This document shows positions 6,743-22,418 of a stretch of 22,478 nt of DNA, piece after piece. The stretch's first letter is position 1. Each line of letters opens with the position of its first letter. The notes under the pieces are model-generated. The model did not search any database. It saw only the letters and a program-made list of their open reading frames with translations, and had not been told where the DNA came from. A program made the position numbers and the translations under genes. Source of the stretch: a virus; the IMG/VR virus record IMGVR_UViG_3300003702_000043, positions 7,258 through 29,735 of that record, one strand, 5' to 3'.

Positions 6743-6788
6743 GTATAATTATTTAATTTATAAGTGCTTAATACCATAAATAATTGAA
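6743..6788. promoter_or_regulatory. Divergent late-promoter region, gp25 / 165-residue gene
   Basis: A 46-base gap separates two divergent genes. For the minus strand, TATAAATT (6755-6762) overlaps TAAATA (6750-6755), 7 bases before the gp25 ATG. For the plus strand, ATAAATA (6776-6782) ends 6 bases before the ATG at 6789. Both match the core of the T4-type late promoter TATAAATA. If start-site spacing follows T4, the leaders would be only a few bases long. No Shine-Dalgarno is seen on either side. Confidence 0.6.
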
Positions 6789-7286
6789 ATGAGTACGTTC
6801 GATACATTATTTGAAGCCCAGATCGGTCGGTTTGTAAAATCAGGTCCTATTGCTGGTGATTATGTTAAATTAAAGAGTAATTTTAAATCATCTGATTGGT
6901 ATAAAGATTTAGACGAGTCTCGTAAGAAATATGTACAAGAAGTCTTAACTTTATCTGAGCAGGGTAAATCTCTTATGCTGTCTACTATTAAAAAGGGAGT
7001 TTATGAGACCGCTGCTACAGATTCTCAAGCCTGGAATGTAGCTGATATAGTTGTAGAGTATGCTCCTGGTTTTTATCATCAGTCTTTAACACTTCCTTTA
7101 GAACTTCTTGAATTTTCTGAGACATGGGATGAGCATAGAGCTACTGCAAAAGATCCAACTAACGATCAAGAAGATCATACTACATTAAAGCCGAAGGAAG
7201 TTGAAGATAAGGCTATTGATGTTGGACAGCAAACTCGCATACCTGATGGTGACTATAAGTTAGGTACGGCGAATTACATGCCTTAA
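6789..7286 (+). CDS. Unrecognised 165-residue phage protein
   Basis: I do not recognise this family. The protein starts MSTFDTLFEAQIGRFVKSG and continues with GDYVKLK and a helical stretch (YKDLDESRKKYVQEVLTLSEQGKSL, 38-62). It then has a beta-like segment (NVADIVVEYAPGFYHQSLTLPLELL) and an acidic, Lys/Asp-rich C-terminus. There are no membrane segments. It is a lone plus-strand gene among minus-strand genes, divergent from gp25 and convergent with the clamp loader, whose stop codon it overlaps by three of four shared bases. The T4-like late-promoter box in front suggests late expression, perhaps as a small virion or assembly protein. That role is inference. Confidence 0.8.
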   Translation: MSTFDTLFEAQIGRFVKSGPIAGDYVKLKSNFKSSDWYKDLDESRKKYVQEVLTLSEQGKSLMLSTIKKGVYETAATDSQAWNVADIVVEYAPGFYHQSLTLPLELLEFSETWDEHRATAKDPTNDQEDHTTLKPKEVEDKAIDVGQQTRIPDGDYKLGTANYMP

Positions 7287-8191
7287 GGGTGTAAGTCGAG
7301 TATGCAAGAATAGAAGTTGATCTCTTGATCAATACACTGACTATTCTGATAAAAGTATTTAGAGATTGTAATTAGACAGTCTCTCTTTTTTTCTTCATCC
7401 ATAGGATTTGCATACATATAATTAAATAAGCGTCTAAATAATTCATCATAATCACTGTTAAACGATGCTTCGTTCTCAATGATTGCTTTACGAATTAAAA
7501 AATATTTTCTCTGAGATAATAGGTCGATTAACCCGTCGAGAAATTCTGTTGTAATATTACTGGTAGTGTTTTCTCCATCAGATAAATAATATTTTTGTAA
7601 AGCGTTAATACCTTTTCTAAAATCCGGATAACAACTATTAACAATATTTGTAAAGTTTTCTTTGTTAATTTTTATCTCTTCAGCTTTAACAATAGATATT
7701 AATTTAGTTAAGTATTCATTTTTATCATAAGTAATATCAAATATTTGACATCTACTTTGTAGAGCTGGAATAATCTTATGCTTATAATTTGCTGTAAGTA
7801 TGAATCTTGTTAAGTCGTGATATTCTTCTATCGAGTTGCGTAGCGCTTTTTGTGCGTCAATAGATAATCCATCACACTCGTCAAGTACTATAACCTTAAT
7901 TTGCCCAAAGAGACTCTTTGTCTGCGCGAAGTTTAAAACTTTTGTACGGATTGTATCTATCCCGTTTTCATCAGATGCATTGATATAGAGATATTGACAC
8001 TTAAGAATATCCTTAACAATAATTTTAGCTAGAGAAGTTTTCCCAATACCAGGCTTTCCTACAAATAAAACATTAGGTATATTGTTATCTTCTTGTACTT
8101 TATTAAAATAATTTTTAGTACTTTTGTCTAGAACTATTTCATCTAAAGTACTCGGTCGATACTTTTCACACCAAATATCAGAAATTGTCAT
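7283..8191 (-). CDS. 44: DNA polymerase clamp-loader ATPase subunit, gp44-like
   Basis: 302 residues (T4 gp44 has 319). This AAA+ ATPase loads the sliding clamp onto primed DNA during phage replication. Visible motifs are the N-terminal WCEKYRPSTLDEIV, Walker A GKPGIGKT (45-52), Walker B VIVLDECDG (100-108), sensor 1 LTAN (132-135), and the SRC motif with its arginine finger at R147. A shorter helical collar region follows from about 200. It overlaps the upstream 63-residue gene by four bases (ATGA), so it is translationally coupled. The partner gp62 and the clamp gp45 are not in this window. It lies inside structural genes, unlike T4, where 44 sits in the 43-62-44-45 replication cluster. Confidence 0.95.
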   Translation of the reverse strand: MTISDIWCEKYRPSTLDEIVLDKSTKNYFNKVQEDNNIPNVLFVGKPGIGKTSLAKIIVKDILKCQYLYINASDENGIDTIRTKVLNFAQTKSLFGQIKVIVLDECDGLSIDAQKALRNSIEEYHDLTRFILTANYKHKIIPALQSRCQIFDITYDKNEYLTKLISIVKAEEIKINKENFTNIVNSCYPDFRKGINALQKYYLSDGENTTSNITTEFLDGLIDLLSQRKYFLIRKAIIENEASFNSDYDELFRRLFNYMYANPMDEEKKRDCLITISKYFYQNSQCIDQEINFYSCILDLHP

Positions 8192-8379
8192 TGTAGGGAA
8201 TGTACTATCTGATGTACTTCTGCATTTTTAATCCACTCACTATTAATACTCTTATCTATTTTTAATTGTTTAAATGCCTTTTCTTCAGCTTCAAGGACAT
8301 TTTGAGCTTTGACTGTATACTCTCGGCGCATAATTTTGCCTTTCCAATCGGGAGATTTAAATTCTACTTCGTAAATCAT
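8188..8379 (-). CDS. Small 63-residue protein between dUTPase and gp44
   Basis: This short frame is probably real because it lies tightly between two confident genes: 5 bases after the dUTPase stop and 4 bases overlapping the gp44 start. The predicted protein has a strand (MIYEVEFKS), a second strand (REYTVKAQ) and an amphipathic helix (VLEAEEKAFKQLKI), a small alpha/beta arrangement. I do not recognise a family. No Zn-binding or membrane features are visible. Its position suggests co-expression with nucleotide and replication functions, but that is only context. Confidence 0.65.
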   Translation of the reverse strand: MIYEVEFKSPDWKGKIMRREYTVKAQNVLEAEEKAFKQLKIDKSINSEWIKNAEVHQIVHSLQ

Positions 8380-8384
8380 AATAA

Positions 8385-8915
8385 TTATCCAGTCGATCCA
8401 AATCCATCTTCACCTCGCTCAGTGTCATCAATTTTATCTGCTTCAGAAATTGTTGCTGTAATATGAGGGTATAATACTAATTGAGCAATTCTGCTGCCTT
8501 TGTTTAAGGTTATATTTACATCGCTAAAATTATATAATTTAACACCCAGGTCGCCTCTGTATCCATTATCGATAATACCTAAATGGGGTTGAATGTTATG
8601 CTTAAATCCTAAGCCGCTTCTAGGTTCTACTCGAAACCAATATCCTGGTGTAATATATGCTAATGTTAGGCCTACAGGTACAACTACAGAGCCTCGTCCC
8701 GGTACTATAACCTCCTCTACGCTATATACATCATATCCGGAATCACTGTCATGAGCTCTATGTGGTAATTTGGCATCCGGATGAGTTTTCATTACTTTGA
8801 GTTCAATCTCTTTATTACAAAATGTTACATTCGCGCTACCATCATCATTTTCACCGATTGCGAATGAGCGAAGAGAAGATAATGATTGATATTGTAACGG
8901 CTGAAAATCGTCCAT
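8385..8915 (-). CDS. dut: Trimeric dUTPase (dUTP diphosphatase)
   Basis: 176 residues. The enzyme hydrolyses dUTP to dUMP and pyrophosphate, which keeps uracil out of phage DNA and supplies dUMP for thymidylate synthesis. All five motifs of the trimeric family are present: motif 1 DSDSGYDVYS (56-65), motif 2 EPRSGLGF (97-104), motif 3 GIIDNGYRGDLG (113-124, catalytic D116 and Y119), motif 4 GSRIAQLVLYP (140-150), and motif 5 RGEDGFGSTG (167-176), the C-terminal arm that closes over the active site. An extra N-terminal stretch of about 36 residues precedes the usual start. Met42 is the only alternative start nearby, but it falls inside the first core strand, so the long start is kept. Confidence 0.95.
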   Translation of the reverse strand: MDDFQPLQYQSLSSLRSFAIGENDDGSANVTFCNKEIELKVMKTHPDAKLPHRAHDSDSGYDVYSVEEVIVPGRGSVVVPVGLTLAYITPGYWFRVEPRSGLGFKHNIQPHLGIIDNGYRGDLGVKLYNFSDVNITLNKGSRIAQLVLYPHITATISEADKIDDTERGEDGFGSTG

Positions 8916-8961
8916 ACAATGAATATAGTATATAATTTAGATTTTTCAAGTAAATACTTTT
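8916..8961. promoter_or_regulatory. Divergent promoter region, dUTPase / small terminase
   Basis: A 46-base gap lies between divergent genes. On the plus strand, TATAAT (8931-8936) resembles a -10 box, and TAAATA (8951-8956) lies 5 bases before the ATG at 8962. On the minus strand there is TAAATT (8934-8939), and closer to the dUTPase ATG a run TATACTATATT that resembles host -10 elements. Early or middle control of dUTPase and late control of the plus-strand gene would fit, but this is inferred from motifs alone. Confidence 0.5.
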
Positions 8962-9441
8962 ATGGATGACATTGATCCTGCTGATTTAATATCGCAATTA
9001 AAAACCGTACCGAGAGCTAGTAGACAATTAGCACAACAGTCAGAGAGATTTAATATTTCTAAAGATGAAGTTGAAGATTTTATTATACAAAAATCATCTA
9101 AATTAATTCAAGATTCTTTAGAGTTAATAGATAATATGAAGGAAGTGGTTCATCATATGCCTGAAGCAGAAAATGTCTCTTCTCTCGCTGAACTTATTAA
9201 GGCTTCAACTGGTGCTATTGAAACATTAAATAAATTAGTCGTTCAAGATAAAAAATCTAATACTACTATAAAAGCAAAACAGTTAGATATAGATTCTAGA
9301 AAAGAACTTCAAAGCGCTGATCAACAGCATTCATTAATGTTAAGTAGAGATGAGGTTCTTGATCGTTTATTGAAAGATTCAAAAATAATTAATGTAGAGT
9401 CAGATGTAAAGGAACCCGATAAGCTAGACCCCCCTACCTAA
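8962..9441 (+). CDS. Probable terminase small subunit, gp16-like
   Basis: 159 residues, very close to T4 gp16 (164). The pattern fits gp16 proteins. A variable, acidic N-terminus is followed by a long helical hairpin (about 40-110), reading IIQKSSKLIQDSLELIDNM, a short loop with PEAENVSSLAELIKAS, then GAIETLNKLVVQDKK. In T4 gp16 the equivalent part is the central helices that build the oligomeric ring. A Lys/Asp-rich, probably disordered C-terminus ends KLDPPT. Small terminases recognise phage DNA and stimulate the large terminase. The assignment rests on length, helix pattern and a resemblance remembered from T4. No large terminase is in the window to support it. It is divergent from dUTPase and overlaps the convergent gene by 8 bases. 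Confidence 0.5.
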   Translation: MDDIDPADLISQLKTVPRASRQLAQQSERFNISKDEVEDFIIQKSSKLIQDSLELIDNMKEVVHHMPEAENVSSLAELIKASTGAIETLNKLVVQDKKSNTTIKAKQLDIDSRKELQSADQQHSLMLSRDEVLDRLLKDSKIINVESDVKEPDKLDPPT

Positions 9442-10513
9442 GAATACCCATATCAAATGGTCTTTGAAGAGTTTGTATTTTGTTTAATAAGATATCTACT
9501 TCTTCTTTAGAGTTTTCTATTACTACTTCATGTACCCCGGGTACTATTTTTTGAATATTATTTAATTTATTCATTGTAAGCCATGATAAAACGGTATAGG
9601 TTCCACCTAATGCAGTAGCAATATTTTCATTAATCTCAGGCTGATTTTTCTTTAATCTTTCATAATGGTAATGATCAGTAACTAAATTTTCTTTATGAGC
9701 ATCTGCGGCAACTTCTCCTGTGTTGATTATTTGCTGCATGTTTCGTTTAAATAAAGATTCAACTCGATTGCTTAATTGAACAATATTTGTTCGGGTTTCC
9801 ATTTCTAATTTATCATCAATGATACTATTATAAGGTAAAGGAGTTGTATCTTGCATAAATTCATCTGCATAATGCGTGTATCTACTTTGAGGGTATTGCC
9901 ATTGATAAAATAAAAAACCTACACTTTCAGATATTTCTTGTAAAATAGTATCTTCTACAGACAGTCTTTCTGATAATATTTCTTTTACTTTTAAGTGACA
10001 TTTACGGTACTTATCTAACCACCACGCGATGAATTCACCATTTTTATCTTCATTTGCTATATCAAAGCTATTTGAAATTTTGCTTATTTTTTCATTTACA
10101 TTTGTAGAGTCATTTTCAGTCAAAGGAATTTTTTTCCCTTTTACAGTTAATGCAACTAAGCCTAATTCTTTATCCTGAAATATAATCGGGTTTCCAGCGT
10201 CATCCTTTCGTAAGGAATCTCCATCGTCAACGTCCATTTCTTTTCTTTTAAGGTATTTTGTTGCTTTAGGAGATTTAGCAAATTTTTGTAAGTCTAAGTT
10301 TGCATTTGCTATACCTTCCCAAAAGTCTGCTTCCGCAGTAATAGGATCTGATTCATATTTTAAACTATCATAATATTTTGATAATGCTACAAAATTAATA
10401 TATTTTTCAATTATAGAATTAAAATTTGTAGATGCGATATGAAAATCTACTGAATTAGTTAATCGAGTATTTACTATATCAGGTATTCCAGTTTTTGATG
10501 GTATTGCGCTCAT
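9434..10513 (-). CDS. Unrecognised 359-residue structural-type protein
   Basis: I do not recognise the family. The protein is soluble, largely helical and acidic. The N-terminal 60 residues contain SVDFHIASTNFNSIIEKYINFVALSKYYDSLKY-like amphipathic sequence. A charged segment rich in D, K and N occupies about 100-165. A Trp/Tyr-rich helical region (AWWLDKYRKCHLK, LFYQWQYPQSRYTHYADEF) is at about 165-220. The C-terminus has an isolated hydrophobic patch (TALGGTYTVLSWLTMNKL). It starts one base after the hub-like gene, with a strong Shine-Dalgarno 9 bases upstream, so it belongs to that operon and is most likely a baseplate or tail component or an assembly factor. That role is inferred from position. 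Confidence 0.8.
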   Translation of the reverse strand: MSAIPSKTGIPDIVNTRLTNSVDFHIASTNFNSIIEKYINFVALSKYYDSLKYESDPITAEADFWEGIANANLDLQKFAKSPKATKYLKRKEMDVDDGDSLRKDDAGNPIIFQDKELGLVALTVKGKKIPLTENDSTNVNEKISKISNSFDIANEDKNGEFIAWWLDKYRKCHLKVKEILSERLSVEDTILQEISESVGFLFYQWQYPQSRYTHYADEFMQDTTPLPYNSIIDDKLEMETRTNIVQLSNRVESLFKRNMQQIINTGEVAADAHKENLVTDHYHYERLKKNQPEINENIATALGGTYTVLSWLTMNKLNNIQKIVPGVHEVVIENSKEEVDILLNKIQTLQRPFDMGILR

Positions 10514-10514
10514 A

Positions 10515-12161: not shown

Positions 12162-12163
12162 TA

Positions 12164-12529
12164 TTATACTTGCTTGTTAATTTCAGATAATATTCTACTT
12201 ACATATGTTGGTTTTATAACTGTATATTTGTCACCAGTAATAGGATTATTAATCGGATTTTGTATATTATTAGCAAGACATATCAACCACCATAAATTCT
12301 GATTTCCGTATACTTGATCTGAAAATGATGTCCATGGCATATTAGCTGTAACTCTTACTTCGAAAAATACTTGTGGATTAAGATCATCAGGAAATGATAT
12401 TTTTTTAATTATATTATAAAAAAAATACTTATCTGACCGAGCCATTTTAAAGATGTTCTCATATCTAGTATCATCTAGAGATTTTAACTCTGCTATATTA
12501 TTTCGAGTGAGTTGTAAATCTGTAATCAT
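12164..12529 (-). CDS. 53: gp53-like baseplate wedge protein with LysM-type fold
   Basis: 121 residues, shorter than T4 gp53 (196). The C-terminal half carries a LysM-like pattern that is characteristic of the gp53 family. It has a TANMPWTSFSDQVYG strand-helix start (61-75), LWWLICLANNIQNP (79-92) and a closing TGDKYTVIKP (98-107). The N-terminal half has an FFYNIIKKISFP helix-strand. In T4, gp53 clamps neighbouring wedges together around the hub, and the LysM fold here is structural rather than murein-binding. A GGAGAT Shine-Dalgarno lies 8 bases upstream, within the end of the previous gene. Confidence 0.75.
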   Translation of the reverse strand: MITDLQLTRNNIAELKSLDDTRYENIFKMARSDKYFFYNIIKKISFPDDLNPQVFFEVRVTANMPWTSFSDQVYGNQNLWWLICLANNIQNPINNPITGDKYTVIKPTYVSRILSEINKQV

Positions 12530-12532
12530 ATT

Positions 12533-13852
12533 TTAATCTCCATCGTTACCGCCTCTTCCCGTTGGCCAACCACCCGGGCCAGTGTTCATTCCTCCAGGTC
12601 TCGCTCCTACTGCTCCTGTTTGAGCCGCTTCATATGCTTTACCGTCATCTCCTTCATCCCAATTCCTATCACCATATACATCTGGATATGGTTCAGATTC
12701 TTCATGACTTCGAACTGGGTTATTAATACTATCAAACATTAAATTCTTTGTCTCTGGTGTAAGACTTGTGAGAGTTAGTTGTATTTCATAACCTTCAGGA
12801 ACAATTACTTCTGTTGCCGATGTGTTTTTTGTAACTTTAAATGGAGGCATTTTTCTTCTGACTCCAATAAAGTTTATCTTGATATTACTTAAAAAACTCC
12901 ATCTATAACTAAAGACACCCGGTAAGGAGGATTGATATATTACAGGCGGTGTTATTGCAGTTTTATTTACTCTATTAGGTAAATTTTGATATGTTAATAA
13001 AAATATAAATCTATAGTTTTTCATCCATTCAGACACGTCATCATATCTTGTGTTATCTAAATAAAACGTAATATTATAACTCGGACCAGAGTCGGAATAT
13101 TGAAATGTCTTTGCAAAATCAATACCAACACCAGGAGAAACTGCCGATGTTAATGCAGCCATGAATTCTATGGGCGTTTGAAGTATGGACCCTTCTTGAG
13201 ACCAATTATTAGATATTGTTTTATATGAATCTTCTAAATAAGGCAAACGGTATATAAACTTAGTTTTTTTGACACCATATATGTTTTCATATGATTTTAA
13301 ATATTCTGGCATCTCGAATTTAGTTGTACCAAATGCGCTATCAGCGCCACTAGTAATAGATTCAGATAATCCTTGAAATCCGCTCATTGTGTTGTTGAGC
13401 GCTTTGCCAAATGCACTTGGTAATTTATCAGCAATATTTTTTATACTTTTAGCATAACTTTCTGGATCATCGCCCCATTTTTTACCTGGACCGTAAATTT
13501 GTTCAGTAAAAAGTTTAAGGTTTTGAAAAAAGGCTGGGACAGTTACTATATACTCTCTTAATGTAACAGTTGGTATGGTTTTTACTGCTACTGAATCTTT
13601 AGCTGATTTTGTCCATCGAAATTGTTTTGTTATATTTATATCCATATGATCTGCACCGTCAGGTGGTACAGGTACATCTGCTACAGTATCTGATATAACG
13701 TTACTTTTTGCTCTTGATATTATTTTTCCGGCGGCCGCCTTTATTGTGTCATTAGTAGTAAGCTCCACACCATTTTTAGAATCTCCCTCCATATTTGTAC
13801 ATGTCGGCTTTGAAAACTCAAATAAATATCTATCGTTTATATTAGTAGGCAT
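12533..13852 (-). CDS. Tube-like baseplate junction protein (gp48/gp54-type) with Gly-rich tail
   Basis: 439 residues (T4 gp48 has 364 and gp54 has 320). The core, about 180-385, contains a block YNITFYLDNTRYDDVSEWMKNYRF followed by SLPGVFSYRWSFLSNIKINFIGVRR and then PEGYEIQLTLTSLTPETKN. That last block resembles the closing strands of tube-initiator proteins that stack on the hub and template the first tail-tube ring. The final 30 or so residues are a low-complexity Gly/Pro tail (GGMNTGPGGWPTGRGGNDGD). The gene sits directly before gp53-like and hub-like genes and after the candidate tape measure. In T4, genes 48 and 54 follow the tape-measure gene 29, so position agrees. I cannot say whether it is the equivalent of gp48 or gp54. 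Confidence 0.6.
   Translation of the reverse strand: MPTNINDRYLFEFSKPTCTNMEGDSKNGVELTTNDTIKAAAGKIISRAKSNVISDTVADVPVPPDGADHMDINITKQFRWTKSAKDSVAVKTIPTVTLREYIVTVPAFFQNLKLFTEQIYGPGKKWGDDPESYAKSIKNIADKLPSAFGKALNNTMSGFQGLSESITSGADSAFGTTKFEMPEYLKSYENIYGVKKTKFIYRLPYLEDSYKTISNNWSQEGSILQTPIEFMAALTSAVSPGVGIDFAKTFQYSDSGPSYNITFYLDNTRYDDVSEWMKNYRFIFLLTYQNLPNRVNKTAITPPVIYQSSLPGVFSYRWSFLSNIKINFIGVRRKMPPFKVTKNTSATEVIVPEGYEIQLTLTSLTPETKNLMFDSINNPVRSHEESEPYPDVYGDRNWDEGDDGKAYEAAQTGAVGARPGGMNTGPGGWPTGRGGNDGD
12536..12541 (-). promoter_or_regulatory. Shine-Dalgarno for the gp53-like gene
   Basis: GGAGAT on the minus strand lies in the last two sense codons of the previous gene. Its GGAG core (12538-12541) is 8 bases before the ATG at 12529. 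Confidence 0.65.
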
Positions 13853-13867
13853 AATTATTAATTAGTA

Positions 13868-15256
13868 TCAATTTAACCATTGTTTTAAGGTAGGACCTTC
13901 ACTAAACATATCAACTGGCGGAGGTTCAGGTGTATTAAGAAAGTTATTTGTTGTACTGTTTACATTTATTCCTTGTTGTACTGGATCCACTCCAGTACCC
14001 TCGTTCTTTTTTTCTCTCTTCATTTTTTGTTGAATTTCGATCCGACGTTGTTCCTCGTCGAACTTTTCGACTTCATGAAGTTTATCTTGCACCGTACCGA
14101 ATTCCGTAATGTTTTTGCGAATAAGCTCTTCAGCCGCGTTATATCTTAAGTCTTCTTCTTTAGTTCTTACAGGATCTTTTAGACCAGATAATTTTCTCAT
14201 TAACCATAATGCAGGTTCTCCTGTCCAAGCAGATCGTTCCGTTGTTGGGTCACCTAAACCACCTAACCTATGTCTAGTTTGCTGCGCTTCGACAAAACGT
14301 TTATACAGCGCATACTGATCATCAGTAAGTCTTTTTTTTGCCCATTTTAGTTTCTTCTTAGTACCTCCTGGATCATTACTACTTATATCAAGAGATTGTT
14401 CGGCCATTGAGTCAAAAATGCCAATACCAGAAGATAGAACATCATGAGTCATTACACCTTGGCCTATAAAAGGAATAGCTCTTACTCCGACTCTGGAACC
14501 AACGCTGAGCGCACCTTGACCGGTTTTACCGACCAGTCCCCATGTTTTGAAGGGACCGAGCTGCATCAGCTCCTTCCATTTTATTCCTCCTGTGAGAAAA
14601 GCCGATTTTTCCATCGCTTTTTCTATAGATTTCGCGAGTGGCTGCATTGCTTTTTGCCACATCGTCGAGCTTGTCTGCTGGAGGGCAACACTGGCAGCGT
14701 CACCAGCAGCATCTAGTTGGCCTTGCGATATAATAGACCTACGTGGACTTGGGTCATTGAAGCCGGGTTCGCCGTGGTGCCGCTCAGGATTTTCTGTAGA
14801 TGCCTGAGCTACTTGAGGCTGGTTATTGCCGTTGGTGCGGCGATATCCGACCCAATGCTCCTCCGTGGTTCTATTAGCAGCTTCGTCCCGTTCTCTTTGT
14901 TCTTGTGCTTTTTGCCACCATCGCTTTATACCTTCGCCCCATTTGGAGGTGTTAGGTTTTAAAGCATCATAAAGCCGCTGGAATGTTTCAATGGCCTTGG
15001 CTTTATTTTCTGGAGTATTAACTTTGTTGTTATAAAAATCTTTGGCAAGATCCTCACCCTTGTTGCCCAAGTCCTCGACGGTTTCGGTTACCGAGTCGAT
15101 GATCGACTCGGCGAGGGCGGATTCGGTAGCACGCAACTTGTCAAGTTGCCGTCTTTCGTCATACCATGAAGCTTCAGGGGCAGTATCTCTACCCATGATC
15201 ATATCTGTGGCAGCTTTTAAATAATCATCCATTTTATTCAATACTGCATCTTTCAT
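13868..15256 (-). CDS. Candidate tape-measure (gp29-position) protein, GC-rich
   Basis: 462 residues; T4 gp29 has 590. I do not recognise the family by sequence. It is charged and helical at both ends (1-130 and about 375-430, rich in E, K, R and Q). A Gly/Ala-rich, mildly hydrophobic centre lies at about 232-283 (GLVGKTGQGALSVGSRVGV, IPFIGQGVM), and disordered Pro/Asn stretches at about 140-175 and 435-455. This helix / hydrophobic centre / helix layout suits a tape measure, and the gene lies between a gp26-like gene and a gp48/54-type gene, where T4 has gene 29. It starts in the ATGA stop overlap of the 112-residue gene. Its base composition is far richer in G and C than its neighbours. The function is inference from layout and synteny. 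Confidence 0.45.
   Translation of the reverse strand: MKDAVLNKMDDYLKAATDMIMGRDTAPEASWYDERRQLDKLRATESALAESIIDSVTETVEDLGNKGEDLAKDFYNNKVNTPENKAKAIETFQRLYDALKPNTSKWGEGIKRWWQKAQEQRERDEAANRTTEEHWVGYRRTNGNNQPQVAQASTENPERHHGEPGFNDPSPRRSIISQGQLDAAGDAASVALQQTSSTMWQKAMQPLAKSIEKAMEKSAFLTGGIKWKELMQLGPFKTWGLVGKTGQGALSVGSRVGVRAIPFIGQGVMTHDVLSSGIGIFDSMAEQSLDISSNDPGGTKKKLKWAKKRLTDDQYALYKRFVEAQQTRHRLGGLGDPTTERSAWTGEPALWLMRKLSGLKDPVRTKEEDLRYNAAEELIRKNITEFGTVQDKLHEVEKFDEEQRRIEIQQKMKREKKNEGTGVDPVQQGINVNSTTNNFLNTPEPPPVDMFSEGPTLKQWLN
14070..14081. repeat. 12-base perfect palindrome in candidate tape-measure gene
   Basis: ACTTCATGAAGT is identical to its reverse complement. It is preceded at once by a 6-base hairpin GTCGAA-CTT-TTCGAC (14057-14071). 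Both lie in coding sequence for the charged C-terminal helix. They may be incidental to codon use. Confidence 0.6.
14782..14809. repeat. 7-base inverted repeat with 14-base loop
   Basis: GCTCAGG (14782-14788) and CCTGAGC (14803-14809) are perfect complements around a 14-base spacer within the candidate tape-measure gene. The effect on the mRNA would be a modest stem-loop. Function is unknown. Confidence 0.55.
15091..15111. repeat. Perfect inverted repeat, 10-base arms, 1-base centre
   Basis: CCGAGTCGAT (15091-15100) and ATCGACTCGG (15102-15111) are exact reverse complements around a single G. Short outer arms CCTCG (15073-15077) and CGAGG (15112-15116) are also complementary. It encodes residues 49-56 of the candidate tape measure (AESIIDSV). 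The one-base centre is more typical of a dimeric protein-binding site than of an RNA hairpin, but no function is known. Confidence 0.85.
15133..15149. repeat. Second perfect inverted repeat, 8-base arms, 1-base centre
   Basis: GCAACTTG (15133-15140) and CAAGTTGC (15142-15149) are exact reverse complements around a single T. The centre lies 40 bases from the centre of the 15091-15111 repeat. It encodes residues 36-42 of the same protein (RQLDKLR). Confidence 0.85.
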
Positions 15257-15591
15257 TTTCCCAGCGCGGCATCTGGGTTAAGTAAATCTCCAAACAATGC
15301 TAAAAATCCTAAACCAGCCCCTGCTCCTAAAACTTTCTTTCCGGTGAGTGCTTTAAAGAAATCTCTCATTTCTTTTTTTGCTACTCGAGCAGAGTGACCG
15401 GCGGTGACACTCGGTGGTATTGGTCGATCGGCATCACGAGTTGAACCAGATAATCTTCTGGCGCCGCCCGCTTGGTTTCTTATTGTTCTATGAAGAGATT
15501 TAATTTCAGAAACAAAATCAGATTGATTCCGTTCTAAGTTAATAGTTCTAGCATGTATATCTGCTAACAGTCGATCTCCAGCCGCTGACAT
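15253..15591 (-). CDS. 112-residue protein, possible tape-measure partner
   Basis: I do not recognise the family. The N-terminal 40 residues form a likely coiled-coil helix (LLADIHARTINLERNQSDFVSEIKSL, 8-33). A flexible Arg/Ser/Gly region follows, then a Lys/Arg-rich helix. Near the C-terminus is a hydrophobic Gly/Ala segment (VLGAGAGLGFLALFGDLL, about 87-104) that could cross or insert into a membrane. Coiled coil plus a hydrophobic segment is a common tape-measure theme, so this may be a separate N-terminal partner of the 462-residue protein that it overlaps by four bases. Both share the elevated GC. A TAAATA box is 7 bases before the ATG, and there is no Shine-Dalgarno. Confidence 0.75.
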   Translation of the reverse strand: MSAAGDRLLADIHARTINLERNQSDFVSEIKSLHRTIRNQAGGARRLSGSTRDADRPIPPSVTAGHSARVAKKEMRDFFKALTGKKVLGAGAGLGFLALFGDLLNPDAALGK

Positions 15592-15598
15592 ATGTAAT

Positions 15599-15604
15599 TA
15601 TTTA
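15599..15604 (-). promoter_or_regulatory. TAAATA late-promoter-like box before the 112-residue gene
   Basis: TAAATA on the minus strand lies in the 14-base gap (15592-15605), in the context TTAAATAATTACATATG, 7 bases before the start. It matches the -10-like core of T4-type late promoters. Confidence 0.5.
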
Positions 15605-15605
15605 A

Positions 15606-16250: not shown

Positions 16251-16911
16251 TTTTAAGTCTTTTTATTAAAAGTGTTATATATTGTCTAAATTGATCATAT
16301 GTTATATAGTCAAAATCTTGATATGTAAAATTACCTCGTCGCATAAGAAATAGTTGCTCATCTAATAAATTTTCATATGAATATATCGTACATAAGTACA
16401 ATATGTAATTAATTATATCTAAGTTATATGAAAATCTACTATTAAATTCATCGTTTATATAATAGATATAAGAGTTATTTAATTTTTCTTTATATTCATT
16501 TATATATGGAGAACATTTTTTAATTAATGGTAAGGGAACATCTTCATAATTGTCCTTAGTTATAAAAGCTATAGTTCCGTTTTTTTCAATTTTTTTAATA
16601 AACGAGGCGTTTGAGAAAAAGTCTATTGATGGATAGCCAATAGTTATAAAATAGTCATCTATAATATGATTACTTTCTGAATAGGTAGGTAGATCTTTAA
16701 GAAAATTTTCTTTATAAATTAGTAGGTCACCTTTATTAGTGTTTAATTTTATTGCAGAATTTTTATTAATAAATTTTTCAGCTTTTAATTTTGTTACAAA
16801 TTCAATAATATTTTTACTAGAGAGTCTCTTAGCAAAAAATTCAATTAATTCTTTATATTTTTTCTCACTATGAAGGTTCGAAGCTTCAATTAAGTCATTA
16901 TAACTTATCAT
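16231..16911 (-). CDS. Unrecognised 226-residue protein, possible tail assembly factor
   Basis: I do not recognise the family. The protein is AT-codon biased, Ile/Asn/Tyr-rich and largely helical. A C-terminal helical block (LDIINYILYLCTIYSYENLLDEQLFLMRRGNFTY-type sequence, about 165-195) resembles the alpha-helical domain found in tail assembly chaperones. It overlaps the upstream tube-like gene by four bases (ATGA) and the downstream gp26-like gene by 20. It lies between the tube genes and the candidate tape measure, the usual place for assembly chaperones. The chaperone role is an inference from position and helicity. Confidence 0.75.
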   Translation of the reverse strand: MISYNDLIEASNLHSEKKYKELIEFFAKRLSSKNIIEFVTKLKAEKFINKNSAIKLNTNKGDLLIYKENFLKDLPTYSESNHIIDDYFITIGYPSIDFFSNASFIKKIEKNGTIAFITKDNYEDVPLPLIKKCSPYINEYKEKLNNSYIYYINDEFNSRFSYNLDIINYILYLCTIYSYENLLDEQLFLMRRGNFTYQDFDYITYDQFRQYITLLIKRLKNEQPSR

Positions 16912-18149
16912 GGTCCAGGAGGCTTAGTACCTCGAGTTTCACCAAACGACGGGTCGTTTGGATCTTCTAAGGGATTCTTCCGGGCTTCCTGATCCCGTAG
17001 GGCTTGTACATATGCTCGTTTCTGTTGTTTCGGGCTTTGATCTTTCAAAGGTGGTGTAACCGCCGGTCGAGTTGGTTTCTTCGGCTCCCATGCCTGGCCA
17101 GCTTTAAAGAAACTAGGGTTGTCACCTGGTCCCATAAATGCTCCTTCAGATTTACCAGTTCTTTCAACTAAATCACCAGTTTGAATGCCTATTTTTGACT
17201 TTTGTTCCGGAGTCATTACATCACCAGGTCCTATGAGCGTGGATTTACCGTTAACCTTGTATACACCTTTACTCTTAGCATCCGGTTTTTTTGCACTCGG
17301 ACTTGGCGGAACTTCGGCAGTCCATATATCATCAGACCAATCTCCTTTTGTTTTATCTAAAGCTGGATTATATTTTCCAGGCTCTGGTGCTGGTGCTGGT
17401 GCAGGCGGCGGAGGAGGAGCTGCTTCTATATGTGGAGTGAGTACCTCATAACGCGAAAATCTCCATTTAACAGAAATAGAACCAGTATCCATTTCACCAG
17501 TATATTCGTTTACACCTGCATCATTTATTTGATAAGGTATACAATCTTTATACTTATAAATTTTACGTACAACTGGACTGCTAGAACCTGGTGATCCAAA
17601 TAACATAGACATAAAACTTGTTTTACGAGATGTAACCATTTGTTTTGATAAGAAAAATATATCTATATTTGCTGTAAGAACAGGCTTATCTATATTTCCA
17701 TATACTCCATATAATTGAGCCCATGGTCTAAATATACCATCAATAACACTAACATTAGTTTCGTAAAATTGAACATCAAGATCATTATCAGGATAATCAT
17801 GACTCTCCATAAAAGGACCTGTAGGTAAAATACCATTAATAGTTTTTCCTCTATTTTGTACAGTATTGTGTTCAGTCGTTGTATCAACACCTGTAGCTAA
17901 GAACATATATCCTCCTCCCTTACCAAAAAACTTTTCATGAACTTTTCTATTTGTATCAATACCTGGTTTAGTATTAAATGGACGTAAACCTAATTTTTTA
18001 ATTGCTTTATCATTTATAGATGCAGGGAGGTTATCAATAGACACTAAGAAGAAGTTTTGTGCAGCGGGAAATGTAGAAAAATCCTGTAATAGTTCAAAGA
18101 AAGTTTCTCTTAGATTTCTTGCATCTGATGGAGGTAATTTAACGTCCAT
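16908..18149 (-). CDS. Tube-like tail/baseplate protein with proline-rich C-terminal extension
   Basis: 413 residues in two halves. Residues 1-240 are globular and end with SPVVRKIYKYKDCIPYQIN, then TGSISVKWRFSRYEV. This matches the closing strands of the tail-tube fold, where the tube protein has TYKLYGVFPTDCG and later TITVAYQFFRR. Residues 243-257 are a Pro/Ala linker, and 258-413 are low-complexity Pro/Lys/Gly/Asp sequence with no visible hydrophobic core. T4 gp48 and gp54 share the tube fold, so this could be a tube initiator or terminator. The long disordered tail is unusual for them. The gene directly follows the tube gene, with a TAAATA box 5 bases before its ATG. Which T4 protein it corresponds to cannot be decided by eye. 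Confidence 0.55.
   Translation of the reverse strand: MDVKLPPSDARNLRETFFELLQDFSTFPAAQNFFLVSIDNLPASINDKAIKKLGLRPFNTKPGIDTNRKVHEKFFGKGGGYMFLATGVDTTTEHNTVQNRGKTINGILPTGPFMESHDYPDNDLDVQFYETNVSVIDGIFRPWAQLYGVYGNIDKPVLTANIDIFFLSKQMVTSRKTSFMSMLFGSPGSSSPVVRKIYKYKDCIPYQINDAGVNEYTGEMDTGSISVKWRFSRYEVLTPHIEAAPPPPPAPAPAPEPGKYNPALDKTKGDWSDDIWTAEVPPSPSAKKPDAKSKGVYKVNGKSTLIGPGDVMTPEQKSKIGIQTGDLVERTGKSEGAFMGPGDNPSFFKAGQAWEPKKPTRPAVTPPLKDQSPKQQKRAYVQALRDQEARKNPLEDPNDPSFGETRGTKPPGP
17383..17423. repeat. GGTGCT-type short repeats encoding the Pro/Ala linker
   Basis: Repeated GGTGCT units followed by GGCGGCGGAGGAGGAG on the plus strand encode the A-A-P-P-P-P-P-A-P-A-P-A-P linker on the minus strand. Such repeats can change length by slippage. 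Confidence 0.75.
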
Positions 18150-18154
18150 ACAAA

Positions 18155-18160
18155 TATTTA
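18155..18160 (-). promoter_or_regulatory. TAAATA box before the tube-like gene
   Basis: TAAATA on the minus strand lies in the 17-base gap, 5 bases before the ATG at 18149, in the context TTAAATATTTGTATG. The sheath gene has the same TAAATATTTG core. Confidence 0.5.
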
Positions 18161-18166
18161 AGGCTA

Positions 18167-18757
18167 TTAACCTAATACTGCACCAGCTAATTTACCAATA
18201 GCGTTAACTGCAGTGTTAAGTTCATTATCTCTCCTGAAGAATTGATACGCTACAGTTATGGTAACAGTCGCGACTTCACCATCACCAGTAATGTTATAAC
18301 CTATATCACCACAGTCTGTAGGGAACACACCGTATAGCTTATATGTACGTAATGGTTCAAATTGAGTATCTAATTGAACTAAAGTAACTGTACTGTTATT
18401 ATGAAGTACTCCATCACCAGAGGTTGTTTCATCGTTATAAGTTTCAGTTATCCAATTTTCCATTGCAATACGAGCTTGAGTTGTTGCATCACAATAAAAG
18501 TCAATAGTAAAGGCATCGCTTGAATTATATGACACAGTGCCAGGAATTCGGAAGTTAAATCCATTATAAGGAACATCTTTTGTTGCAATTGTTTTACCGG
18601 GTAATGTAGCTGCCGTGGCATACACTAAATCGTCTTCTGTAAATACAGGTGTACCTTTATTAGAAACGTCTAATACACGAAACTGAAAGTCACGCGCAAA
18701 GTCTCTCGTTTGCGCTACTTTGTAAAAATCTTGAATTGTTTGTTTGATATCAGCCAT
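18167..18757 (-). CDS. 19: Tail tube protein gp19-like
   Basis: 196 residues (T4 gp19 has 163). Hexameric rings of this protein stack to form the inner tail tube through which DNA passes. The family pattern is clear: RDFQFRVLDV (22-31), then the loop with ATLPGKTIATKDVPYNGFNFRIPGTVSYN (about 49-78), FTIDFYCDATTQARIAMENWI (83-103), a YKLYGVFPTDCGDIGYN block (138-154) and the last strand TITVAYQFFRRDNEL (170-184). It directly follows the sheath gene after a 31-base gap that contains a TAAATA box, as in T4, where 19 follows 18. Confidence 0.93.
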   Translation of the reverse strand: MADIKQTIQDFYKVAQTRDFARDFQFRVLDVSNKGTPVFTEDDLVYATAATLPGKTIATKDVPYNGFNFRIPGTVSYNSSDAFTIDFYCDATTQARIAMENWITETYNDETTSGDGVLHNNSTVTLVQLDTQFEPLRTYKLYGVFPTDCGDIGYNITGDGEVATVTITVAYQFFRRDNELNTAVNAIGKLAGAVLG

Positions 18758-18768
18758 GATGTTATAAT

Positions 18769-18774
18769 TATTTA
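18769..18774 (-). promoter_or_regulatory. TAAATA box before the tail tube gene
   Basis: TAAATA on the minus strand is 11 bases before the tube ATG, in the context CTAAATAATTATAACATC. No Shine-Dalgarno is visible. It suggests independent late transcription of the abundant tube protein within the operon. Confidence 0.5.
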
Positions 18775-18788
18775 GTTTTTACTTTAAT

Positions 18789-21449
18789 TTATTGTCCAAC
18801 TATCTCCTCAAAATTAACCTCTGTGTTAACAGCATAAAAGTTAACCAATATAAACTCTGCCGCGCGAACAGGCTTCAAATAGATATCTACTCTCAACTCG
18901 TTTTGATCAATAACAGAAGGTGGGTTATTCCTTTCGTCACAAACAATAAGGTAATCATAAACACCTTCTGTTTGTTTGCAGTTCTCAAAAATCGGTGTTA
19001 ATGTATTAACGACCTTAGTCCTTGTTAGGAACGTATTAGGTTCAAAGACAAAGAATTTCAAGGTCTGCCGGGTTCTTTTCTCTAAATCAAGAAACAGTCT
19101 ACGAACATTAACTCTATCAAATGCCGTGGGTTTCCGTTGTAATGTCTTTTGACCAAATACAATAATACCTTCAGCGGGGAATTGTGTAACAGGATTAATA
19201 GCAATCCTATATAATTGATCTCTTTGACGTTGTGTCGGGCTAACCGCAATATCATTTACACCTGTGACAACGCCGCGATTGAAACCAGCCGGTGCATACC
19301 ATGGTGCAAAGTTTGAATCATTATTAGCATAAATTTTAGCTGCAACACCAGAGAACGGAATCCAGATTTGCTTACCACTTGTACCGTCCCAGACTTTTGC
19401 CCAGTTACCGTAAGTTGTAGCGAAGTTACTATTAGCAATACCAAATTGATGTCTTAATGGCCAGTATACATGCTTACTAAAGTTTTTAGTTTTATCATCA
19501 AGAACTTTACCAGCTTCACCTTGTACAACTAATGGCCTAAGCGCATCAGCAATAAAGATATGATCTTTTCTCGTCTGTCGAGCAAATGTCTCAAATCTAT
19601 TAAAGATAGTTCTATAATTATCTCTTTGAGTTATGTAGGTTGATCCTATCATATTTTGATCTGGTGTAAAGAACCCTGTACTTGTTCCACCAACATCTTG
19701 AAAATCAGTATCAATAAAGGACTCGCTATTATTTGCCGCAAATGCATGTATTGTACCTAACCCAGCTTCAATAGAAACATCAATAGTAAATACATCAACA
19801 TTCTGAGCAATTTCAAATATTCTATCTAATTTATCAGGAATACTGCCAACAAATTTAGTTGTATTATTAGTTGTATGATATACACCTAATGGAAATAATC
19901 CTTGTATTACTTCATAGTTTGGCGAATCGGTGCCATCTAAAGGCCCGCCAGAACCAACTACACTGTTTAAAATTGCAGCGTTACTATTACTAGCATGAGC
20001 AACTCTAACTGTCTTTGTAGGAACGTCTCCAACTGTTGAAGTCCAATCTCCACTGTATTCACTAATATTTGGATTTATTAAAATTTTTATATTTGGCGAC
20101 GCATTATCTTGATCTTCAAGGAAAAATGATCTTTGTTGACCTCCGTTCTCGTTTTGGACTTTTCGTCTAGAGTTAAGAGATCCAGTATATCCTTCTGCTA
20201 AGAAATTAGTTAATTCTAATTCAGAATTAGCAAACGGTGTATTTCGAATTTTGAAAACACCTAAACTTATGGTGTCGAGAAATTCTGGACCGTCAATATC
20301 AAATTTAGAAAATGTTTCTAAAGTTTTACTTGTACTACTCTTTTCTTCTGTGGCCAGGCTAGTTAAATTAAATCCTATTCTAGATCCTGGGACTGTTGCA
20401 TATCCTGTTCCGGAAATTTCAGTTGCTGTACTAGTAGTAGTATATACTGCATTTACTGTATCAAAGTTAGTTGCAGGATTACTATTAGAACCATCAGCTG
20501 TTCCAACATAATAACCTTCGAAATTATTATTAGTTATTGTAGCTCCTTTATTTAGTACAATAATACCTGCTCCAGCCGTGCTTGTAAAATCACCAGTAAA
20601 TGGAGCACCTTCAGGTGAACCTCCGATGTTTCCGTCATTACTCCAAGTTATGTTACCTTTGCTTGCCGAATTAAATTGAGCTTCAGTTAACTCAACAAGA
20701 GTAGGAGATCCGATAACATAATAATCTGCAGCACTTAAAGAGCTGTTTGAATCATCAAGAGCGCCAACGTCATTACTTTGTACTTGACCGGTAACAAGAG
20801 TTTTACCTATTATACTAGCAGCAAAATTAGCATCTGAATAAGAACTGACTCCAGTGGTTGTTAAATCTTTACCCATTGCACCGGTGTTGGCCGCTGATAA
20901 TCGAAATACTGCCGTTGAATCTGGTGAGGAGGCGAGCATGCCACTAAGACCGGTCATCGAAGTATTAACAAAAGATAAAGTGTCATTAGAATCCTTCATC
21001 ACTAATTCAATATTAATAGTATCAGTTGAAAGGGTGTCTGTGACTGTTATTTCCGTGCCCGCAGTAGTAGAGAGATCGATCCAGCTGCCATTGGTAGTAT
21101 CAACGGCTGTTATAGTTGCTGTTGTTGGAGATGCGACAGGATAAACTAGAGCAGAATATTTTCGATCGCCGGTCGAGGAACCATAAGGTAACCGAGAGAC
21201 AAAAACATTTGCGTCGCTATTAAAGACTTGTCGCGTAGAATGATAAAAATATCTCTCAGCTGCGTTTGTAGGTTTGCCGTAAATTTCTTCAAATTCCGCG
21301 AATGTGCCTACATTAAAAACCTCGTCTGTAGGTCCTTGATTGGAAAATCCAGCGACAAATACACCAGTACCTACTGGCGCTGCAGGCCGTTGCGTCAAAT
21401 CAATTTCTCTTATTTCTACTCCAGGTGATTGGATTGTTCTTCTACTCAT
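18789..21449 (-). CDS. 18: Contractile tail sheath protein gp18-like
   Basis: 886 residues, much longer than T4 gp18 (659). The N-terminus SPGVEIREIDLT, then GTGVFVAGFSNQGP and FAEFEEIYGKPT, is the conserved arm and first domain. The C-terminal part is strongly conserved: FNRGVVTGVNDIAVSPTQ (from about 723), GIIVFGQKTLQ, NVRRLFLDLEKRTRQTLKFFVFEPN, and DIYLKPVRAAEFILVNF near the end. This domain makes the inter-subunit strand exchange that links sheath rings. Residues about 110-480 are a long Ser/Thr/Asn/Gly-rich insertion, probably surface-exposed domains. The gene has the window's only combination of a TAAATA box and a good Shine-Dalgarno (AAAGG), consistent with very high expression. Confidence 0.97.
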   Translation of the reverse strand: MSRRTIQSPGVEIREIDLTQRPAAPVGTGVFVAGFSNQGPTDEVFNVGTFAEFEEIYGKPTNAAERYFYHSTRQVFNSDANVFVSRLPYGSSTGDRKYSALVYPVASPTTATITAVDTTNGSWIDLSTTAGTEITVTDTLSTDTINIELVMKDSNDTLSFVNTSMTGLSGMLASSPDSTAVFRLSAANTGAMGKDLTTTGVSSYSDANFAASIIGKTLVTGQVQSNDVGALDDSNSSLSAADYYVIGSPTLVELTEAQFNSASKGNITWSNDGNIGGSPEGAPFTGDFTSTAGAGIIVLNKGATITNNNFEGYYVGTADGSNSNPATNFDTVNAVYTTTSTATEISGTGYATVPGSRIGFNLTSLATEEKSSTSKTLETFSKFDIDGPEFLDTISLGVFKIRNTPFANSELELTNFLAEGYTGSLNSRRKVQNENGGQQRSFFLEDQDNASPNIKILINPNISEYSGDWTSTVGDVPTKTVRVAHASNSNAAILNSVVGSGGPLDGTDSPNYEVIQGLFPLGVYHTTNNTTKFVGSIPDKLDRIFEIAQNVDVFTIDVSIEAGLGTIHAFAANNSESFIDTDFQDVGGTSTGFFTPDQNMIGSTYITQRDNYRTIFNRFETFARQTRKDHIFIADALRPLVVQGEAGKVLDDKTKNFSKHVYWPLRHQFGIANSNFATTYGNWAKVWDGTSGKQIWIPFSGVAAKIYANNDSNFAPWYAPAGFNRGVVTGVNDIAVSPTQRQRDQLYRIAINPVTQFPAEGIIVFGQKTLQRKPTAFDRVNVRRLFLDLEKRTRQTLKFFVFEPNTFLTRTKVVNTLTPIFENCKQTEGVYDYLIVCDERNNPPSVIDQNELRVDIYLKPVRAAEFILVNFYAVNTEVNFEEIVGQ

Positions 21450-21530
21450 AGTAAACCTTTACAAATATTTATTGTTTTCCGCTGACATATTTTAGTTGAT
21501 TTGGCGAAATAAGCATTATAATATAAATAT
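21450..21530. promoter_or_regulatory. Divergent promoter region, sheath / thymidylyltransferase
   Basis: An 81-base gap. On the minus strand there is AATAAATATTTG (TAAATA at 21466-21471) and then the sheath Shine-Dalgarno AAAGG (21456-21460), 6 bases before its ATG. On the plus strand there is a consensus TATAAT (21517-21522) and an exact T4-type late box TATAAATA (21522-21529), ending one base before the ATG at 21531. Whichever is used, the plus transcript would have almost no leader. Confidence 0.6.
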
Positions 21531-22409: not shown

Positions 22410-22418
22410 ATATTAATA

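Follow-up and report, generated by a model that had tools for sequence, protein, structure and literature searches.

The window analysed here is a stretch of 22,478 nucleotides of viral DNA (IMG/VR record IMGVR_UViG_3300003702_000043, positions 7,258 to 29,735). Its genes include those for a baseplate wedge subunit, a dUTPase, the tail tube, the sheath and an RmlA-like nucleotidyl transferase. Ahead of these lies either the hexamer TAAATA or a sequence that looks like a sigma70-type promoter. The genome is 33% GC and contains many TAAATA. An Rfam scan of the window had no match at gathering scores. In what follows, "gap" is the number of bases between a box and the ATG.

6750..6755, minus strand: putative late box TAAATA, gap 7 to the ATG at 6742 (baseplate wedge subunit gene); predicted leader about 2 nt
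6777..6782, plus strand: putative late box TAAATA, gap 6 to the ATG at 6789; predicted leader about 1 nt
8922..8949, minus strand: sigma70-type promoter TTGAAA-N16-TATATT (spacer counted by hand), gap 6 to the ATG at 8915 (dUTPase gene)
8951..8956, plus strand: putative late box TAAATA, gap 5 to the ATG at 8962; predicted +1 is the A of ATG
15599..15604, minus strand: putative late box TAAATA, gap 7 to the ATG at 15591
18155..18160, minus strand: putative late box TAAATA, gap 5 to the ATG at 18149
18769..18774, minus strand: putative late box TAAATA, gap 11 to the ATG at 18757 (tail tube gene); predicted leader of 6 nt, without Shine-Dalgarno
21456..21460, minus strand: AAAGG, resembling a Shine-Dalgarno, at the 5' end of the predicted sheath leader
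21466..21471, minus strand: putative late box TAAATA, gap 16 to the ATG at 21449 (sheath gene); predicted leader of 11 nt
21496..21522, plus strand: sigma70-type promoter TTGATT-N15-TATAAT, gap 8 to the ATG at 21531 (RmlA-like nucleotidyl transferase)
22407..22412, plus strand: putative late box TAAATA, gap 6 to the ATG at 22419; its TAA doubles as the upstream gene's stop codon

A sequence-only reading of this DNA had placed TAAATA before eight starts (6742, 6789, 8962, 15591, 18149, 18757, 21449 and 21531, at gaps 7, 6, 5, 7, 5, 11, 16 and 1), and all eight are present. The one at 21531 (21524-21529) is however not well described as a late promoter. It follows the -10 box of a sigma70-type promoter, and is best read as the tail of TTGATT-N15-TATAAT-N8-ATG. 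Three other starts had been credited with a relative of the box only. At 22419 this is not so: there is an exact TAAATA at gap 6, so this start belongs with the box-led ones. The same site is found in the large contig G001 at 47138; the motif-blind gene caller picked a later in-frame ATG. At 8915 the sequence in question is TTGAAA-N16-TATATT-N6-ATG, which is again of the sigma70 type. The start at 13852 is left over, with neither class of promoter assigned.

The gaps between box and ATG are conserved between orthologues. Among seven large contigs, one of them (G001) from the same virus, the gap is 6 in all seven for 6789 and 5 in all seven for 8962. For 6742 it is 7 in six contigs and 6 in the seventh, for 18149 it is 5-7 in six of seven, and for the tail tube gene it is 11 in six and 8 in the seventh. 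The sheath box lies at gap 16-19 in all seven (the G008 sheath frame was called as two pieces), and the sheath AAAGG is present in six, being absent from G005. The gap-1 TAAATA of 21531 also recurs in seven of seven. For 15591, gap 7 is kept in G001, and no orthologue was found in the other six contigs. Several relatives have a promoter arrangement like that of 8915, though the called starts differ there.

Spacing of TAAATA before called starts

G001 is 99.7-99.99% identical to the window's record, and the two were not pooled. Genes were called on seven of nine large contigs and on 11 of 13 named phages; G006, G009, P-SSM2 and KVP40 were pattern-counted only. First and last genes were dropped, as were starts 60 bases or less from an end. 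Sequences were read up to 200 kb for G007, 140 kb for Melnitz, 160 kb for immuto, 140 kb for Mosig and 120 kb for RM378. Checked on T4, the motif-blind caller matched on 11 of 15 called starts and left 3 of 18 genes uncalled. G004 and G007 have 72 of 133 upstream 22-mers in common, which means that the seven contigs are not independent.

Over the whole window TAAATA is not enriched (69, with 66.6 expected), and neither is TAAATA-N5-ATG taken by itself (2, with 1.25 expected). Whole-record counts of TAAATA-N3..9-ATG against a reversed control gave mixed results in nine relatives (53 vs 47 in G001, 50 vs 27 in G005). Position relative to called genes was therefore used instead.

Of the 14 starts preceded by an intergenic gap in the window's record, 7 have TAAATA at gap 5-7, where 300 dinucleotide shuffles give a mean of 0.24 and a maximum of 2. 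The comparison of boxes before starts with boxes elsewhere did not refute the earlier reading. The enrichment is positional, ahead of gap-preceded starts.

The seven large contigs provide 520 such starts. Boxes at gaps 5, 6, 7, 8 and 9 number 68, 66, 25, 13 and 19. Gap 5 is a hard lower edge, with no boxes at gap 4 and one at gap 3. A non-redundant count (466 starts) retains the peak, with 57, 52 and 19 at gaps 5-7 and again none at gap 4. Each of the seven contigs exceeds all 300 dinucleotide shuffles of the same upstream sequences.

Starts that abut an upstream gene behave differently. In the less closely related contigs G001, G002, G005 and G007, boxes precede 100 of 314 spaced starts versus 12 of 337 abutting ones (Fisher, P ~2e-23). 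At abutting starts, too, boxes form a minor peak at gap 5 (16/541, with 1.45 expected). The two bases preceding gap-5 boxes are A in 69% and A in 50%, instead of TA. A set of 119 near loci was de-duplicated as exact 55-mers only, so orthologues are counted repeatedly in it; its reverse-complement control yields 2, 0 and 0 at gaps 5-7, but 25 and 17 at gaps 1 and 27. The TAAATA box is confirmed to be real, positional and family-wide.

Sigma70-type promoters and Shine-Dalgarno use

The family has a second class of promoter-like sequence, TTG-N18/19-TATAAT adjoining the ATG. Of 330 starts with no late box, 62 have TTG-TATAAT at gap 6-9 (37, 11, 9 and 5 at the four gaps), and every other gap from 0 to 31 has at most 5. 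None of the 190 box-led starts has TTG-TATAAT at gaps 0-12. For 46 TATAAT at gap 5-8, the TTG was found with a spacer of 15 (13 cases) or 16 (30 cases) after the -35 hexamer. TATAAT at gap 6-8 exceeds every shuffle in 7/7 contigs (G001 has 6/62, with a shuffled mean of 0.72 and a maximum of 4), and does not do so in the window's short record (1/14). The -10 box of sigma70 promoters is numbered -12/-7 (compatible with PMC3160421) and the late box -13/-6, a numbering that predicts the one-base difference between their lower edges, 6 and 5.

Together the two classes account for 253 of the 520 gap-preceded starts (190 late, 63 early), leaving 267. Part of this remainder will come from wrongly called starts or overlooked upstream genes. 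Of 159 box-led starts, 16, partly orthologue repeats, have a TTG 18 bases ahead of the box, with at most 6 at other distances; some late-box promoters might thus have a -35-like element.

Strict Shine-Dalgarno motifs are found at 84 of 1061 starts in the family, versus 132 of 240 in T4. The earlier observation that box-led genes usually do without one is borne out, as 5 of 190 such genes (gap 5-9) have the strict motif. A companion claim was that good Shine-Dalgarno sequences precede abutting starts. It is partly true of the window's record (4/10) and fails family-wide (58/541, shuffled about 39). The exceptions to the scarcity are sheath genes, with a loose AAAGG, and capsid genes (4/6). Six of the eight distant boxes that come with a Shine-Dalgarno belong to orthologues of one gene, sheath. 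A Kozak-like context was also considered and rejected: A at -3 is raised at abutting starts (57%), yet about equally so in Shine-Dalgarno users such as T4 and HTVC008M (54-55%).

Predicted transcript starts and rival explanations

T4-type late promoters have the consensus TATAAATA, with TAAATA as its core. The T4 late box is numbered from -13, with an A(-13) at nine sites (PMC2988020). Gap 5 should therefore put the first transcribed base on the A of ATG.

Base composition is consistent with such a start. Six bases past the box (box+6), 79% of the 146 boxes at gap >=6 have a purine, versus 57% of 646 control boxes inside genes, and box+5 is a pyrimidine in 58 of 58 gap-5 cases. Purines are almost as frequent at box+7 (75%), partly because at gap 6 this is the A of ATG. 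The position of +1 is therefore not pinned to a single base.

A gp55 homologue is encoded in six of seven contigs (E 4e-46 to 3e-50), and that of G001 matches the PHROG 'late sigma transcription factor' (8e-27). None was found in the G003 contig, and the window itself has no gp55 gene. The sliding clamp gp45 had no sequence match and no PHROG or Pfam match. A conserved 243-aa protein may have a clamp fold (Foldseek E 5e-11 to a PCNA), in one moderate model with pLDDT 74, the other four models being at 42-62. For the coactivator gp33 there was no convincing match, weak ones (E 0.003-0.02) occurring only inside a 610-619-aa baseplate-type protein.

We propose, at a probability of roughly 85%, that many promoter-proximal messages of both promoter classes are leaderless or nearly so. 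A gp55-like phage sigma factor on the host RNA polymerase would read TAAATA as a T4-type late promoter core. As the box is often 5-9 bases ahead of the ATG, and transcription would begin six bases past its last A, the first base would be the A of ATG or at most 4 bases before it. Early-type genes would be arranged likewise, by TTG-N18/19-TATAAT 6-9 bases ahead of the ATG. With both classes in register with the ATG, many promoter-proximal messages would therefore lack a leader or nearly lack one. Ribosomes would engage the 5'-terminal start codon without Shine-Dalgarno pairing, and coupling would probably serve genes further down an operon. A Shine-Dalgarno-like motif is retained by a few genes, above all that for the sheath and, in most contigs, that for the major capsid protein.

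The earlier suggestion of a T4-type late promoter core and near-leaderless mRNAs is thereby upheld, as far as placement can tell: +1 is predicted on the ATG or within a few bases of it. The further idea, that the mode of translation is linked to the late promoter, is not. Sigma70-type starts are arranged alike and few starts anywhere in the family have a Shine-Dalgarno motif, so leaderless initiation looks general. It is probably a trait of early- and late-type genes alike and not a late-promoter speciality.

The boxes could also be late promoters while most functional late mRNA comes from read-through of upstream promoters and has ordinary leaders, closeness to the ATG merely reflecting compact intergenic DNA. 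Intergenic gaps are short indeed, and T4 gene e lies under longer early as well as late transcripts (PMC3014915). Compactness would however give no edge at gap 5 with zero boxes at gap 4. Orthologue gaps are moreover constant in divergent pairs 42-46 bases apart, where read-through would cross the opposing gene, and the Shine-Dalgarno motifs such mRNAs would need are scarce. This makes read-through quite improbable.

TAAATA might instead be no promoter at all, and act as an AU-rich translation-initiation element, such as an S1-binding or Kozak-like signal. It occupies the position expected of a ribosome-binding site, and PMC6847099 describes Kozak-like contexts in some bacteria poor in Shine-Dalgarno sequences. 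Abutting starts argue against this, since they need initiation but no promoter, and the box is rare there. Starts without the box often have a TTG-TATAAT promoter instead, not another ribosome-binding site; the box is also the core of the T4 late consensus in a family that encodes gp55, and T4 and Syn9 hold it mostly 20-29 bases from the ATG. A translation element is thus very improbable. Chance or AT-rich composition, suggested by a TAAATA-rich 33% GC genome and a window total equal to expectation, has a negligible probability, as shuffled upstream sequences never match the counts in any of seven contigs and the reverse-complement control is low (1/62 vs 24/62 in G001).

Beyond the leaderless reading itself, we tentatively suggest, with the odds somewhat against it, that this whole T4-like family is built on leaderless expression and uses Shine-Dalgarno sequences chiefly for the handful of virion proteins made in very large amounts (sheath, capsid). 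The route of initiation, not promoter strength alone, would then set protein dosage, and the hosts would by implication be an uncharacterised lineage with 5'-AUG initiation as a main route. Our confidence in this reading is lowered by the predominance of sheath orthologues among the distant boxes that have a Shine-Dalgarno.

In search of the host, a terminase alignment against genome contigs, using two peptide patterns, found no relative. A sugar enzyme (Pfam Polysacc_synt_2), which we take to be PseB-like by role, had two matches at 61-64%, one in Terrimonas ferruginea, which is too weak to name a host. For the bS21 protein of one relative, the nearest PDB entries are 9i5v and 7jil, the latter presumably from Flavobacterium johnsoniae. 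The promoters, on the other hand, do not fit the consensus of Bacteroidota, TTG/TAnnTTTG. Judging from IMG sample numbers, we assume the phage family to be marine.

Comparison with known systems

With T4-type late promoters the family shares the TAAATA core, a gp55 homologue, possibly a clamp-fold protein, and an AT-rich stretch past the box (TAAATA-A/T-T-T-A). The late promoter of cyanophage S-PM2 is NATAAATA (PMC2984593). The difference is in the distance: most boxes of T4, Syn9 and CP220 are 15-29 bases from the ATG (mostly 20-29 in T4 and Syn9), and those of the family are often at 5-9. In addition, the family's first two positions are A-rich and not TA, no gp33 was detected, and box-led genes mostly have no Shine-Dalgarno. 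Unlike those of T4, many messages here seem to begin at the start codon without a ribosome-binding leader, which would be another way to initiate protein synthesis. A literature search, largely of papers outside subscription, turned up no description of T4-type late mRNAs that lack leaders.

A precedent for leaderless phage mRNAs is Thermus phage phiYS40. Its middle and late mRNAs are leaderless (review PMC3594737), so that it is alike in having most messages of some classes without leaders. Its host group is different, a phylum rich in leaderless genes according to PMC3160421. The family has T4-type late boxes and sigma70-type promoters in one register, and some genes retain a Shine-Dalgarno-like motif. 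In Thermus phage phiLo, TATAAT stands at gap 6-11 in 15 of 148 starts. Leaderless TA-led genes are also described for Actinobacteria and Deinococcus-Thermus (PMC3160421 and PMC12340547), with a TATAAT-like -10 box beginning about 12 bases ahead of the ATG. Those genes are cellular, whereas the two promoter classes that share a register here are those of a virus.

Flavobacterium phage immuto is alike in its scarcity of strict Shine-Dalgarno motifs (9/211). Most of its sites are however TTG...TATATTTAG at gap 26-31, where the family has TTG-N18/19-TATAAT beside the ATG. Membership of a Bacteroidota-type class of phages without Shine-Dalgarno was therefore rejected: the scarcity is common to both, but promoter sequence and position differ.

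With the spacing rule, what looked like a quirk of the sequence becomes a testable account of how a phage group starts translation, and an aid to start-codon annotation in such phages. On this evidence the much-studied T4 late system may be able to run without leaders. The rule also bears on the choice of start codons in bacteria and phages that have few Shine-Dalgarno sequences. In the SAR11 phages HTVC008M and Mosig a subset of genes (8 and 5) has the box at precisely gap 5, those of HTVC008M including 6280, 7562, 16007, 18916 and 19456, and their box-led starts (gap 5-9) mostly have no strict Shine-Dalgarno (2/12 and 0/6 have one). Unlike in the family, their other gap-preceded starts are mostly led by a Shine-Dalgarno (52/88 and 46/76), and there is no sigma70-type promoter peak near the ATG. 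Growing on Pelagibacter, they are cultured phages in which the rule can be tested.

Relatives of the virus and gene calling

The window, which carries T4-like tail genes, comes from an IMG/VR virus record that is 29,735 bases long and has 33% GC. Among the matches listed, its sheath is 30-43% identical to those of T4-like phages, and its gp6-like protein 22-26%. A DNA-level search of the window against phage records gave no match. PHROG profiles found in the window are baseplate wedge subunit, tail tube, dUTPase and clamp loader.

At 99.7-99.99% identity, the 122-kb contig G001 represents the same virus, and a further eight contigs, 75-201 kb long, come from relatives. Genes were called on seven of these nine contigs with a script that relies on codon usage and ignores motifs; the seven are not independent of one another. 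Checked against the public T4 annotation, this script missed 3 of 18 genes; of the 15 that it called, 11 had the identical start and 4 differed. "Gap" here means the bases between a promoter hexamer and the start codon. In a 16-kb stretch of phage HTVC008M, 5 of 5 called starts with a TAAATA box at gap 5 agree with public annotation; for a sixth, whose box is at gap 10, the annotation puts the start elsewhere.

The adjoining window frames 13868-15256 and 15253-15591 correspond to a single 585-aa frame in G001, where the matching region is about 33 bases longer. Either the strains differ here or one assembly contains an error.

Two probable promoter types and their distance to the start codon

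The sequence-only reading had reported TAAATA, the core of the T4-type late promoter, before eight starts; with T4-like start-site spacing, many late messages would then be nearly leaderless, which hinted at a promoter-linked mode of translation. All eight boxes are present at the claimed gaps; one more, at 22407-22412, had been overlooked. TAAATA is strongly positioned before gap-preceded starts, though its total across the window is not above expectation. In the window's record, 7 of 14 such starts have it at gap 5-7, compared with 0.24 in shuffled sequence. The seven contigs give 22/62, 20/70, 19/79, 24/70, 21/60, 20/57 and 33/122, where shuffles average 0.61-1.32 and reach 4-6 at most.

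Pooled over these 520 starts, gaps 0 to 4 hold 1, 15, 2, 1 and 0 boxes, gaps 5 to 9 hold 68, 66, 25, 13 and 19, and any later gap at most 9. A non-redundant start set retains this profile. At 119 further loci, many of them orthologue repeats, there are 65, 49 and 12 boxes at gaps 5-7 and none at gap 4; nine loci with 56-64% terminase identity have 7, 5 and 2, and again none at gap 4. Among abutting starts, 16 of 541 have a box at gap 5. Where the box lies at gap 5-7, the start codon is ATG in 152 of 159 cases and GTG in 7. Baseplate, tube, sheath and terminase genes are among those led by a box.

PMC2988020 describes the T4 late box as eight bases, about one helical turn 5' of the start site, numbered from -13. 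This means that its last A is -6, with five bases between it and +1, so a box at gap 5 would put the first base of the message on the A of ATG. Of 146 boxes with a gap of at least 6, 79% have a purine as the sixth base after the box, versus 57% of 646 control boxes inside genes, and the base preceding ATG is a pyrimidine in 58 of 58 gap-5 cases. The seventh base is close to the sixth (75% purine), in part because it is the A of ATG at gap 6. This pattern fits a +1 at the sixth base, so that gaps of 5-9 would give leaders 0-4 bases long. At 16 of 159 box-led starts, some of them orthologue repeats, TTG lies 18 bases 5' of the box.

Starts without a box were scanned for any hexamer over-represented at a fixed gap. 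Among 308 of them, TATAAT occurs at gap 6 in 26 (1.6 expected) and TTGATT at gap 29 in 13 (0.6 expected). For 46 TATAAT at gap 5-8, TTG is found at spacer 15 in 13 and at spacer 16 in 30. With TTG required and at most one mismatch to TATAAT, 330 no-box starts have 37, 11, 9 and 5 sigma70-type sites at gaps 6-9, with no other gap exceeding 5. None was found among box-led starts at gaps 0-12. These putative promoters are a second class, independent of the late box. The -10 box is usually numbered -12 to -7, so TATAAT at gap 6 would place +1 on ATG here too. The gap edges of the two hexamers are one base apart, exactly as their two numberings require.

The gap-1 TAAATA at 21531 and its orthologues follows such a sigma70-type promoter (TATAATATAAATATATG; TACAAT in the related contig G005). 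A putative promoter of one class or the other accounts for 253 of 520 gap-preceded starts. The gap-preceded start 13852 (window 12533-13852) has neither, and its arrangement differs from that of its orthologues.

Sigma70-type-led genes include RmlA-like, dUTPase, FolE and QueD, in line with expected early functions. We infer early timing for these genes, and late timing for the box-led ones. A gp55 homologue is present in 6 of 7 contigs, and the G001 copy matches the PHROG late sigma factor; gp33 was not found in the family contigs, and a sequence search for gp45 gave no match. A conserved 243-aa protein (L093:217-945 in G001), which matches nothing in Pfam or PHROG at E up to 0.001, is modelled as a sliding clamp (pLDDT 74; PCNA, E 5e-11).

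Translation signals and other genes

A strict Shine-Dalgarno (SD) motif precedes 84 of 1061 starts across the family. The comparison phages have 132/240 (T4), 113/184 (CP220), 98/185 (Melnitz), 55/168 (Syn9) and 9/211 (Flavobacterium phage immuto), and the SAR11 phages 88/182 (HTVC008M) and 83/182 (Mosig). Box-led starts have it in 5/190 at gap 5-9, 0/27 at gap 10-14 and 2/24 at gap 15-29, and gap-preceded starts without any box in 19/279. If AAGG is allowed, gap 15-29 rises to 8/24 against 6/190 at gap 5-9 (P about 1.5e-5); this is mostly a single gene, since six of the eight are sheath orthologues. The sheath leader is conserved, with AAAGG at its 5' start in 6 of 7 contigs. Of six contigs, four have a strict SD before the major capsid gene (the G005 start is probably miscalled), and only G008 has an exact TAAATA there, at gap 19.

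The 541 abutting starts overlap by -4 in 136 cases and by -1 in 69, and 58 have an SD. Frequent overlaps with few SDs make it likely that these genes are translated by coupling.

Genes for ribosomal protein bS21, which influences start-site choice in other systems, occur in 2 of 9 large contigs (L165:969-1163 in G007 and G003:C1:60388-60537), as well as in HTVC008M, Mosig and Melnitz. Phage-encoded bS21 may therefore be relevant to translation of leaderless or SD-led messages.

G001 also has homologues of FolE (GTP cyclohydrolase I; L094:481-1116), a PTPS-type, QueD-like protein (L094:2943-3440) and QueC (L093:7552-8253). This gene content suggests 7-deazaguanine DNA modification. A large sugar-gene cluster (L094:6071-19152) includes glycosyltransferase, epimerase, cytidylyltransferase and related genes; many of them lack relatives in the other six contigs, as would be the case if surface-sugar genes had been gained recently.

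Comparison with other phages

Boxes were counted within 54 bases of gap-preceded starts. At gap 20-29 lie 21 of 32 boxes in T4, 19 of 25 in Syn9 and, less clearly, 14 of 30 in Melnitz; CP220 has 46 of 61 at gap 15-29. HTVC008M and Mosig are mixed: 8 and 5 genes, respectively, form a spike at precisely gap 5, alongside ordinary SD genes.

Annotated HTVC008M genes with a box at gap 5
6280, 2OG-Fe(II) oxygenase
7562, CsgF
16007, putative tape measure
18916, DNA end protector
19456, baseplate tail tube cap

HTVC008M, a cultured SAR11 phage, is thus a ready system for testing. Immuto (NC_055915) repeats an upstream motif, TTG...TATATTTAGGTATCAATAATTAAAAC, whose -10-like portion lies at a gap of about 26-31; judged by this motif, it has a clear putative promoter class different from the family's.

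Thermus phage phiLo has TATAAT at gap 6-11 and lacks TAAATA. The phylum of its host is rich in leaderless genes, according to PMC3160421. For phiYS40 of Thermus, a review (PMC3594737) gives most middle and late messages as leaderless, so leaderless phage messages are already known. In literature searches covering few subscription papers, none of the papers listed was seen to report both promoter classes in one register. What looks new here is a T4-type late box and sigma70-type promoters sharing one register, family-wide.
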